Below are positions 55,327 to 58,357 of a stretch of DNA of 64,000 nucleotides, one piece after another. Position 1 is the stretch's first letter. Every line of letters begins with the position of its first letter. Made by a program: the position numbers and the translations under genes. The DNA is from an uncultured Tateyamaria sp. (lineage in GTDB: Bacteria; Pseudomonadota; Alphaproteobacteria; Rhodobacterales; Rhodobacteraceae): positions 620,001-684,000 of the forward strand of contig NZ_CANNDN010000001.1 of assembly GCF_947503465.1 (NCBI RefSeq), read 5' to 3'. Below the pieces are notes generated by a model. The model saw only the letters and a list, made by a program, of their open reading frames with translations, made no database searches and was not told the origin of the DNA.

Positions 55327-56049
55327 GTGACGCCTTTGAAAGACGAAAAAGTGGCGAAGGTAATCCTAGACCTCGCGCAAGAAATACGCAGTAGATGGGA
55401 CAGGCTGGGCTATCTGGAAACGGATGATGGTGCATTCGCTACTGGCCATGTTCCGAATGTAGCTCCACACGCATATCTGTGTCGCTTTTATCCGGGTCTT
55501 TCGGATGCTGGGCTTGATGATGCCGAGGCAGAGAGTGAACGATACTTGCCGCAACCCTATCGAGATATTCTTAGTTCGTTTAATGGCGCGAGAATTATGG
55601 GCATCTCGTTGCACGGAGCGACTGGTGGCCAGACCGTCCGAGACGCTGAAGGTATCGGGCAGCCGATAAGTATCAGATACCAAAATGTTTTCTACACTCG
55701 ACCAGAGTTCATTCCAGAAGGCCACTTTGGCTTGGGGGCCATGAATGGCCCTCGATACTCGCAAGGCCATCTGTATCTCACGAGCGTTGGCGAAGTTGAA
55801 TTGATCAATAGAGACCACGATTTGGTCGCCATGAAGTGGCCGTCATTAACGGAATTTCTCAATCAAGAGATTGCGAGACAACTGTCGCGGTACGACGACG
55901 AAGGCCGAGAAACTGGCGAGGTCCCACGACTGCCAGGAAATACGGATAATTGGGAAGCATTGGGCAAAGAAACGTCAGATAGAAGAAAGAAAGAGGATTC
56001 AGTTTTGCACAAGACCTTCACCAAGCTCAGCGTGTTTCGAAAGAAGTAG
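55327..56049 (+). CDS. SMI1/KNR4 (SUKH)-family protein, probable immunity protein
   Basis: A 240-residue soluble protein. The SUKH core is visible at about residues 60-180: FYPGLSDAGLDDAEAESE, LPQPYRDILSSFNGARIMG, and later strands HLYLTSVGEVELINRDHD and WPSLTEFL. Bacterial SUKH proteins neutralise diverse polymorphic toxins. A lysine-rich tail follows. The start must be GTG 55327 because no ATG lies before the domain, and its ribosome site is weak. Codon use is AT-richer than the core genes. No toxin gene lies directly beside it on its strand; the RHS-type toxin starts 1.3 kb away, facing it. Confidence 0.68.
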   Translation: MTPLKDEKVAKVILDLAQEIRSRWDRLGYLETDDGAFATGHVPNVAPHAYLCRFYPGLSDAGLDDAEAESERYLPQPYRDILSSFNGARIMGISLHGATGGQTVRDAEGIGQPISIRYQNVFYTRPEFIPEGHFGLGAMNGPRYSQGHLYLTSVGEVELINRDHDLVAMKWPSLTEFLNQEIARQLSRYDDEGRETGEVPRLPGNTDNWEALGKETSDRRKKEDSVLHKTFTKLSVFRKK

Positions 56050-56276: not shown

Positions 56277-56570
56277 TTAACCGCTTTGAACGAACGCTGA
56301 TGTTTTGAAGCAGCCAAAACACACGAAAACGTACAGCATACCTACATCGGCAAAAGTCATCTCTTCACCGATAGAGTCGATTTGAGCAATAAAGGTCATT
56401 TCTGCGCCACATGATGGACAAACCTGAGCTTCATGGTCTTGAAGGAAATCCGGCGAGCCACCTACTTTTGACCTAGTCCCGATATGGGGGTCTGCCCACT
56501 TGAACCCCATTTTTTCCTGCGCCTCGTCGGTAAGCGGCGTCAGTACGACTTTATATTCTGGCCAGCTCAT
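56277..56570 (-). CDS. Small zinc-ribbon protein, candidate immunity partner of the RHS-type toxin
   Basis: A 97-residue cytoplasmic protein with four cysteines placed as a zinc ribbon: Cys51/Cys54 in VCPSCGAEM and Cys84/Cys87 in FVCFGCF. The surrounding pattern (VGGSPDFLQD, MTFIAQIDSI, ADVGMLYVFVC, QSG) resembles the C-terminal part of DUF1963-like proteins. It begins 3 nt after the toxin stop codon, the usual position for an immunity gene, and shares its AT-rich composition. Function is inferred from position. Confidence 0.65.
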   Translation of the reverse strand: MSWPEYKVVLTPLTDEAQEKMGFKWADPHIGTRSKVGGSPDFLQDHEAQVCPSCGAEMTFIAQIDSIGEEMTFADVGMLYVFVCFGCFKTSAFVQSG

Positions 56571-56573
56571 TAG

Positions 56574-57395
56574 TCACCTGTATGGAGTAATTGGTAAATC
56601 ATCTAGGTGGAAATCCCGTCTCATTTTGTTCATTTGTTGAAAAATCTGCTCACGATTCGCGTTTGGATTCTTGGATATGAAGTCTGACCATTCTTTGTTC
56701 CAATTTCCTCGAAGAGCGCCGCCACCTCTTCCGTGAACCTTCGACAAATGAACTGTCCTCCCCAGTGCCACAGTATAGTTGTCGATGTCTATTCCAGCAT
56801 TTTTAAAGAAACCTTTGAATTGCTGAGAAAAAAGATGATGTTTGTGTACCACCAACCGTGACGCTTGCTTCGATCCCGAAGCCGCTGCAGCAGCTGCTGC
56901 AGCCTTGGCAAGATCATCAAGCTGCTTGACGGACAGGTTCGCAGCGTTTCTTGCAAGCGCTGTGGCTCCTAGACCTAAAAAATCAAATATAAAATCACCT
57001 GATCCGAGCTCACCCGATTGCAGATACTCGGCCCAATCGGCCGCGTTCAGGCTATAAGCTCTCTCTTCAGGTGATTGGCCATTATAGAAGTCAGTAGACG
57101 TAAACTCCAAAAGGCGTTCATAGTGTTCTTGCCGAGTTTCCCGTGATCCACTATCATCACCGCTTGCGTGTCTTCCGCTGTAATAACTGTCAGGAGTCCC
57201 ATATCCGTAGTCCGGGGCATTTCCGCCAGGGTCCGCCAGATTTATTGGGTCATTGGGAGAATAGGAGTAGCGATTTGTGCCAACGGCAGGATCATCTACT
57301 TCCCACCAATCTGGCTGAATAAACATGGCGGATGCCTGCGACGCAAAGATCGCAAATAGCGTGGTCATTATAAATTGCTGTAAAATGCGAAGCAT
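56574..57395 (-). CDS. Miniature RHS-derived polymorphic toxin with its own signal peptide
   Basis: A 273-residue protein in three parts. Residues 1-23 are a signal peptide (MLRILQQFIMTTLFAIFASQ, ending ASA). Residues 24-59 are the tail of an RHS-repeat core (FIQPDWWEVDDP, GTNRYSYSPNDPINLADPGG), the part that normally precedes the toxin tip of a giant RHS protein. After a polar linker and an alanine run, residues about 180-265 form a histidine-rich domain (HKHHLFSQQF at 184-193, His216, His221, GNWNKEW at 230-236) resembling the DUF2380/SitA-type toxin tips of myxobacteria. The RHS shell is absent. GGGGTG precedes ATG 57395. The candidate immunity gene follows after 3 nt. Confidence 0.72.
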   Translation of the reverse strand: MLRILQQFIMTTLFAIFASQASAMFIQPDWWEVDDPAVGTNRYSYSPNDPINLADPGGNAPDYGYGTPDSYYSGRHASGDDSGSRETRQEHYERLLEFTSTDFYNGQSPEERAYSLNAADWAEYLQSGELGSGDFIFDFLGLGATALARNAANLSVKQLDDLAKAAAAAAAASGSKQASRLVVHKHHLFSQQFKGFFKNAGIDIDNYTVALGRTVHLSKVHGRGGGALRGNWNKEWSDFISKNPNANREQIFQQMNKMRRDFHLDDLPITPYR

Positions 57396-57433: not shown

Positions 57434-58357
57434 CTATCTTTGCAGAGGTCGCCAACCTAAAGATTCCGCTTGTTGAAAAGAACCTTGGTTCACACGCTGA
57501 AGGTAAGCCAGATAAGGGCGCTGATCTTCGGGCACGTCCTGCACATTCGGGTACTTCTCGTGGAACTCCGTGCGCAGCAGGTGATAAGATGCCGTAGCTT
57601 TCTTCACCATGATGTAGGCGAACATCGGATAATGCTCGATCAGGATTTCCGCCACGGCAATGGCATCATGATAGCGCTCCTGCTCAATCAGCTCTTCGAC
57701 AACCACTGCGGCGATGACCGCGACGGACTGTTCCGCATTCAGTGGGGCTAGGAACACGCCATTTGCAATCGCTGCATCCGTGATAGGCAGCAGTTCTCGG
57801 TAGTGTTGATCCCGTGCTCGCCCGGCCCCACTGGTGGTTTCGAGATTGTGTGTGACGCCCTGATCGACGGTGAACTTCACAAAGACATGCAATGGGGCCA
57901 TGGCAGGTGTCACATCCAACCCAAGCCGTTGCCCAAGAATAACGAATAAGAATGGCATAGTGATGCAGTTGCCGCGTCGATCTTGGATATAGTCGCTCAA
58001 CAACTTGTTGCGCACATCCAGGCCGTAAGGATCATCGTGGTCATAGCTGAATGCCCTGCCATCGTTCCATGGCCCTGGCTGATAGATATAGCGCCGGATT
58101 GCTTCCACCTTTGTCCAACTATCGGCATTGCGCGGCAGCATCGCACGGATTGCGGCAACCATGTCATCGATTTGAACCAGTTGCGCTTCAACATCGATAC
58201 TGGAATCAATCATGCGATCCACTTCGATTTTCACGCGAGCAAAATCGAGGGCGTCCATGTTGTGAGTGAATAGCTCGCGCACGTCAGCGCGGATGTCGGC
58301 AAATGCGGAGCTAGCGAAAACCCATACTAGAGAAACAGAAAGAACAATAAACCGCAT
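57434..58357 (-). CDS. Exported transglutaminase-like (SirB1-type) protein
   Basis: A 307-residue protein with a signal peptide (MRFIVLSVSLVWVFASSAFA, cleaved after residue 20). The core matches the transglutaminase-like fold of SirB1 proteins: the catalytic Cys131 in QDRRGNCITMPFLF, His157 in APLHVFVKF, and an acidic partner at Glu172 in HNLETTSG. The C-terminal part, EELIEQERYHDAIAVAEIL and onward, looks like tetratricopeptide helices. It may act as a peptidase or amidase in the periplasm; the substrate is unknown. ATG 58357 is chosen for the signal peptide. It lies just upstream of the toxin gene on the same strand. Confidence 0.75.
   Translation of the reverse strand: MRFIVLSVSLVWVFASSAFADIRADVRELFTHNMDALDFARVKIEVDRMIDSSIDVEAQLVQIDDMVAAIRAMLPRNADSWTKVEAIRRYIYQPGPWNDGRAFSYDHDDPYGLDVRNKLLSDYIQDRRGNCITMPFLFVILGQRLGLDVTPAMAPLHVFVKFTVDQGVTHNLETTSGAGRARDQHYRELLPITDAAIANGVFLAPLNAEQSVAVIAAVVVEELIEQERYHDAIAVAEILIEHYPMFAYIMVKKATASYHLLRTEFHEKYPNVQDVPEDQRPYLAYLQRVNQGSFQQAESLGWRPLQR

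Follow-up and report, generated by a model that had tools for sequence, protein, structure and literature searches.

A signal-peptide-bearing RHS-core tail with a DUF2380 tip beside a menin-like transglutaminase gene in a Tateyamaria genome: a candidate toxin subunit of a split RHS weapon

An RHS toxin is understood to be a single-chain protein in which a cage encloses its own toxin, and most RHS toxins of Gram-negative bacteria are delivered by the type VI secretion system. The passages of PMC8636562 dealing with full-length RHS proteins place the cut that frees the toxin behind two DPLGL motifs, which are separated by 17 residues within the autoprotease of the C-terminal plug; the second motif bears the catalytic Asp. 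For BcnA of Xanthomonas perforans, the sections of PMC7259588 on its gene cluster report that an RHS protein (ORFA), ORF2 and a 290-aa signal-peptide protein (ORF4) with some similarity to RHS/WapA proteins are all required, and that ORF5 is the immunity gene. The activity of BcnA was present in the supernatant and lost in a type II secretion mutant; in these same sections the authors describe ORFA as devoid of signal sequence and ORF4 as an accessory for delivery or processing. The third relevant system is pMF1.20 of Myxococcus, a DUF2380 protein for which the part of PMC6091211 devoted to it describes DNase activity in vitro, toxicity to E. coli and neutralisation through the product of a neighbouring gene.

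The gene analysed here belongs to an uncultured Tateyamaria sp. and lies in a stretch of 64,000 nucleotides, hereafter referred to as the window, where it occupies positions 57395-56574 of the minus strand and encodes 273 residues, the plus-strand frame at this place being full of stops. In its product, a signal peptide leads into the last ~35 residues of an RHS core, and the protein finishes with a DUF2380 tip. Residues 1-23 (MLRILQQFIMTTLFAIFASQASA; 57327..57395, minus strand), identified by eye and with a hydrophobicity script, have the form of a Sec signal peptide with a predicted cleavage after ASA-23. They are directly followed by MFIQPDWWEVDDPAVGTNRYSYSPNDPINLADPGGN, a stretch of the RHS-core tail (residues 24-59, MFIQPDWW...DPGGN; 57219..57326, minus strand) that matches the closing portion of TIGR03696. 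Residues 22-58 align with the end of this Rhs_assc_core model (profile positions 42-75 of 76; E 7e-5, 23.3 bits), a match which falls below the cut-off of 32.5 bits, only the end of the model being present. They are also the only part of the protein matching an RHS model, and no YD-repeat shell was found in it. A variable linker or pre-toxin stretch (residues 60-174; 56874..57218, minus strand), which shows no family match and varies between homologues, separates the tail from the tip. The tail contains two aspartates, D29 and D55, invariant across the 22 rows of its alignment (A1), which may represent the pair of Asp motifs found in the autoprotease segment of RHS proteins; this correspondence can only be proposed, since their spacing of 26 residues is four residues longer than the 22 given for full-length RHS in the relevant passages of PMC8636562. 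The database copy of the protein (P0001, 250 aa) begins at M24 and thus misses the signal peptide. M1 appears to be the likelier start codon, because a GGGGTG stretch is located 5-10 bases upstream of it and because the signal-peptide codons are conserved in relatives.

The tip (residues 175-265; 56601..56873, minus strand) matches PF09533 (DUF2380) with an E-value of 1e-17 and 64.7 bits, for a cut-off of 26.3. It also matches TIGR02269 (SitA6) at 58.5 bits, below the equivalog cut-off of 85.75, and the toxin protein contains no Cys, so that it has no lipobox; from its sequence, we assign the tip to DUF2380 and do not consider the protein a SitA6 lipoprotein proper. The tip retrieves pMF1.20 (E 4e-7, 30% identity), with which, together with two other proteins, it shares H186, H187, H216, H221, E235 and W236, the four histidines and E235 being invariant in the four-row alignment. 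A word search for tip homologues returned one besides the tip itself, and a sequence search of solved structures with the toxin gave two irrelevant matches. From its sequence, the tip is best described as a predicted DNase, in which the conserved histidines could be catalytic.

An earlier note on this DNA had described a signal peptide joined to an RHS tail and a histidine-rich, toxin-like tip, with no cage in the same protein and a Sec-type signal of its own. The fusion and its lack of a cage hold, as does the affiliation of the tip to a toxic family, now established with the DUF2380 profile. "Histidine-rich" has to be narrowed to the four histidines conserved with other DUF2380 proteins, and the structure prediction called for by the note was too poor for a fold search (pLDDT 49.7), the histidine cluster being recovered as conservation in the sequence.

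The gene starting 3 bp after the toxin stop (56277..56570, minus strand) encodes 97 aa and is, by its position, the natural immunity candidate. Its product contains two CxxC pairs (CPSCG and CFGC) and a weak DUF1963 match below cut-off, neither of which proves this role; it does not match PF09535, the family of pMF1.19 itself, does not align with pMF1.19, and gave seven weak partial matches when relatives were searched in plasmids. Convergent to it, a SUKH-1/SMI1-KNR4-like gene (240 aa; 55327..56049, plus strand) with a PF09346 match below cut-off (E 3.8e-4) and a GC content of 50% probably belongs to the same island and is a possible second immunity gene.

Directly upstream of the toxin gene, a gene (57434..58357, minus strand) encodes a secreted menin-like transglutaminase (TG, 307 aa) with its own signal peptide, the predicted partner of the toxin; the menin-like assignment was reached on fold similarity. 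C131, H157 and E173, the acid being a Glu, are invariant in 73 TG rows, an alignment (A2) of 73 of the 120 homologues among the matches listed, out of 423 in all, and probably form the catalytic triad. This gene, absent from the earlier note, is a frequent neighbour of the signal-peptide-tail module, i.e. the 59 residues from the start of the protein to the end of the RHS tail. Of 32 module loci, 21 have it next to the module, with two different orientations seen, and a C-terminal fragment of it was the only trace in the 48 named loci devoid of module (1/48). All six places where TG occurs in 394 genomes of the family are within 2 kb of a signal-peptide-tail gene, and the five TG-bearing plasmid records all carry the module. 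The association extends to other proteobacterial families (L119, L160, L161 and L165). TG is missing from 11 of the 32 module loci and is shortened or frameshifted in several. We considered that TG could ligate a conserved Gln of the tail and rejected it as a general rule, several rhizobial tails having a Ser at this position. In L119 (679-2364, minus strand) TG and the signal-peptide-tail-toxin share a single open frame, through natural fusion or because of an assembly frameshift. L160, L165 and L161, from other proteobacterial families, have canonical RHS tails (RYxQSDxIGL..., RFLSVDPV...) with signal peptides, placed behind TG; such short genes may be widely under-annotated.

The earlier note had also called for a comparison of relatives. 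Among 105 homologues, one of which is the toxin gene itself, 96 carry the same RHS tail immediately preceded by a signal-peptide-like stretch, four are in an RHS context and five have short N-termini. A small-x-Ala motif precedes the mature start in 94 of these 96 and the second D-x-x-G motif is kept in 95, while the tips beyond the tail fall into 43 clusters (BLAST E 1e-5), with precomputed Pfam domains including PF15605, PF15542, PF15636, PF14411 and PF07591. At the locus level, the best 80 of 249 relatives in genome contigs (79 loci) were retained; with our own locus they hold 99 copies of the tail, 59 in RHS context, 33 signal-peptide-like and seven of neither form, mostly truncated. One doubtful signal-peptide-like copy without small-x-Ala (L066) was dropped, leaving 32. 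For the 24 of these 32 whose DNA could be compared ungapped, mean pN was 0.32 in the signal peptide and 0.19 in the tail, and mean pS 0.68 and 0.89, giving ratios of the means of 0.46 and 0.21, to be read with synonymous sites near saturation; ungapped DNA identity drops to about 0.3 just beyond the module. The signal-peptide-tail fusion is an old, translated sequence under purifying selection, and the toxin gene is a member of a conserved class, neither a one-off fusion nor a decayed end. The tip is very short at three loci (L010, L014 and L018) and a Mesorhizobium gene (L122) ends right after the tail, without tip. In four Shimia-type loci (L021, L022, L023 and L036) the tail-toxin gene is located just before ribosomal protein genes, with adenylate kinase just upstream in three of them, which is an unusual place for an insertion, within a core operon. 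The module had no match in 50,697 phage records and PADLOC had none for the four genes of the locus, which led us to reject a phage-borne module and anti-phage defence, respectively; the one PHROGs match was weak (E 0.019) and of unknown function. Queries on split RHS, transglutaminase-RHS and roseobacter RHS repeats found the module undescribed in open-licence titles and abstracts.

In some relatives the RHS shell is a separate neighbouring gene, which replaces the idea of the earlier note that the shell was shed as an isolated event. On two rhizobial plasmids (L120/L126 and L121/L125) the gene order is cage, TG, signal-peptide-tail-toxin and next gene; the cages, of 1855 and 1832 aa, each have a hydrophobic export-like start, as judged by eye, and run as far as GLMYLNARYYDPAFGRF(I/V)PKDD and a brief extension, the point beyond which an RHS protein would go on. 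A third plasmid (L123) shows cage remnants only. In the Rhodobacterales loci L020, L025 and L027 the tail-toxin gene begins 75-79 bp after the cage stop, the cage being seen whole only in L020, cut by a contig end in L027 and read over 494 residues in L025. All these cages stop right after NARYYDPxxxxF(I/V)xxD, upstream of the signal-peptide-tail gene, and TcdB_toxin_midN, FG-GAP and RHS repeats are found in both the Neorhizobium cage and that of L020. The break falls inside the C-terminal plug, so that cage and tail-toxin together make up one RHS core, and some rhizobia and Rhodobacterales can be described as having a split RHS toxin, with cage and tail-toxin as separate genes. This split RHS system is our own grouping, comprising L020, L025, L027, L120 and L121, and BcnA by our reading. 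The L020 cage adjoins genes for a prepilin peptidase, GspG, GspF and a secretin, and the Neorhizobium cage (L125) adjoins gspD and gspG. Alphaproteobacterial RHS, cage or tail-toxin genes near type II secretion genes were seen in L038, L040, L079, L020, L029 and L125. Of 86 loci searched by tblastn with six type II proteins of our genome, 18 gave homologues, a count without control regions beside it, in which two locus pairs overlap and which may include other relatives of secretins or ATPases. In genome G304, to which L005, L016 and L020 were matched by their coordinates, the three signal-peptide-tail toxins of these loci occur along with the split cage of L020 and a full-length RHS gene, a combination one might expect if a single cage served several plug-toxins.

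The genome of the toxin gene itself, whose assembly is rated 100% complete, yielded no RHS cage with TIGR03696, PF25023, PF12256 or the L020 cage end, TIGR03696 matching the toxin gene and one other place at 12 bits only. With the L020 cage-end query, which a more distant cage could escape, no cage was found in 15 of 26 distinct module genomes (two pairs of entries with identical sizes and places being merged as the same genome). Our genome encodes a type II GspD (442 bits, over cut-off) about 1.3 Mb from the locus. A type II secretin is present in 14 of the 26 module genomes versus 11 of 25 genomes that were selected by way of RHS-type loci and may themselves contain the module; it is thus not clearly commoner, and was rejected as a general mark of the module. 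Within the module genomes it goes with the presence of a cage (9/11 versus 5/15, Fisher p 0.02, the cut being chosen post hoc).

The explanation that we favour, and hold to be somewhat more probable than not, is that our gene encodes a tail-toxin of the kind which serves relatives as the toxin subunit in a split RHS weapon, our locus being the toxin-TG-immunity half of such a system on a low-GC island. The last part of the C-terminal plug, with its two-Asp strand, and the DNase tip would be exported by Sec as a polypeptide of their own; in the complete form, the cage is a second protein, with an export-like start where its N-terminus is seen, stopping before the two-Asp strand. Both would meet outside the cytoplasm, where the tail would dock into the open plug of the cage, and the assembly would leave by the type II secretion system, autocleavage at DPxG then freeing the tip inside a competitor. 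The neighbouring secreted TG would most likely process or chaperone the tail-toxin subunit. Support for this explanation comes from the recurrence of the fusion (96/105) with 43 tip clusters under purifying selection, from the separate cages stopping before the tail, from the TG linkage and the type II genes at L020 and L125, from the BcnA precedent, and from pMF1.20 as a neutralisable DNase in the part of PMC6091211 describing it. Against it stand the absence of a cage in our genome and, with the single Rhodobacterales query, in 15 of 26 module genomes, the gaps in TG presence (11/32), the short tips of L010, L014 and L018 and the tipless L122, the unenriched type II secretin and the poor model of the toxin (pLDDT 49.7), as well as the account of BcnA in the sections cited of PMC7259588, in which ORFA lacks a signal sequence and ORF4 is seen as an accessory. 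Since no cage was found in its own genome, our gene is a homologue of a split-RHS toxin subunit and not a complete split system, and the split-cage role would be inactive here without a cage from outside.

A copy without cage can be read in the two ways already named in the earlier note, as a captured orphan kept for immunity or as a free secreted toxin. In the latter case, the tail-toxins of cage-less genomes would be exported and act alone, TG being a dedicated activating or delivering enzyme and the RHS tail being retained as its substrate or recognition site. This would make them a distinct toxin class of several proteobacterial families, with a Sec-exported RHS plug strand and interchangeable tips, delivered or activated by a secreted menin-like TG instead of an RHS cage, a joint reading that we hold only tentatively. 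The lack of a detected cage in those 15 module genomes is in line with it, as are the close tracking of the module by TG, with a single fragment in the 48 loci without module, the invariant C131, H157 and E173, and the in-frame, nearly full-length TG genes of cage-less loci (our own, L006, L013, L018 and G207). However, the four Shimia-type loci have neither TG in the locus nor a detected cage in the genome, other cage-less loci have a broken TG (L008 and L010) or short tips (L010 and L018), one would not expect a plug fragment of 35 residues to fold by itself, and it would have no known route across the target envelope. The orphan reading, which we hold just as tentatively, supposes a horizontally acquired module without delivery of its own, kept for immunity and as a store of tips recombining onto cages. 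The low-GC island agrees with such an origin, its genes having 47-53% GC (47.4% for the toxin and 52.7% for TG) versus 61.4% for the window, and the kilobase of the toxin being the lowest of the window (1-kb segments, steps of 500). So does a patchy distribution, only 27 of 394 family genomes matching the module alignment, many by the RHS tail alone, and the DUF2380 tip being found in one of 321 genomes of the order, that of the toxin gene. The tail common to RHS-type and signal-peptide forms, and G304 with three module copies, one split cage and one full-length RHS, would also suit such exchanges. Yet an unused store needs no signal peptide, whereas this one is under selection, with a cleavage site in 94 of 96 homologues, and the frames of the toxin and TG of our locus are intact.

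Two further explanations have far less in their favour than the split RHS weapon. Delivery of the tail-toxin by the type VI secretion system is very unlikely: the two VipB matches of our genome would allow it, but 11 of the 22 module genomes tested have no VipB match, which led us to reject it as a common route, a Sec-type signal peptide fits this system poorly, and the family scans found no PAAR domain. That the gene is what decay has left of the 3' end of an RHS gene, its hydrophobic start being fortuitous, could be argued from the sub-threshold TIGR03696 match and from the database start at M24; this appears improbable in the extreme given the same fusion in 96 of 105 homologues, a signal peptide under selection and the four genome searches in which no RHS shell was found elsewhere. 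The outcome by which the earlier note could have been refuted, a full-length RHS gene at this place of which ours would be the decayed end, was not found, and the interpretation given in the note is partly supported overall.

The secreted TG beside a cage-less tail-toxin is the new element; single-chain RHS toxins and, by our reading, BcnA already exist. A split form whose exported cage could take different plug-toxins, with a transglutaminase partner, would account for the exchange of tips with no giant gene to be rebuilt. Such a form would also point to a role for BcnA ORF4 and to a type II route for Gram-negative RHS toxins. Many short genes annotated as "RHS core" or "hypothetical" thereby become testable toxins.

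Among described systems, BcnA is a likely experimental precedent for split RHS, as far as descriptions of genes, and not sequences, are compared. It shares an RHS gene, a separate signal-peptide RHS-like gene and an immunity gene, as its cluster is presented in PMC7259588, and differs by having ORF2 and ORF3 (124 and 100 aa in that description) where the toxin locus has the transglutaminase; ORF4 as the toxin would be our interpretation and not that of its authors. The SitA6/DUF2380 lipoproteins (pMF1.20, SitAI6) share the toxin family, an export by signal peptide without cage and a downstream partner gene. SitA proteins, as stated in the part of PMC12077181 concerning them, are transferred as lipoproteins through outer membrane exchange, whereas the toxin protein has neither Cys nor lipobox; unlike SitA6, it bears an RHS tail and its neighbour is not PF09535-like. 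With full-length RHS and TcB-TcC proteins, the toxin has in common a tail that is the end of their C-terminal plug, and the separate cages have in common TcdB_toxin_midN, FG-GAP and RHS repeats; in contrast to them, cage and toxin are on two polypeptides, or the cage is absent. MafB and other signal-peptide polymorphic toxins, as outlined in the relevant passages of PMC3482391, also combine a constant exported N-terminal module with variable tips, but here the constant module is an RHS tail and not MafB-N, and TG is a frequent neighbouring gene. Finally, the RHS toxins with an inactive transglutaminase domain mentioned in PMC3482391 also link a transglutaminase-type domain to exported RHS; in that account the domain belongs to the same protein and has lost at least one triad residue, whereas TG is a separate gene in which C, H and E are invariant.
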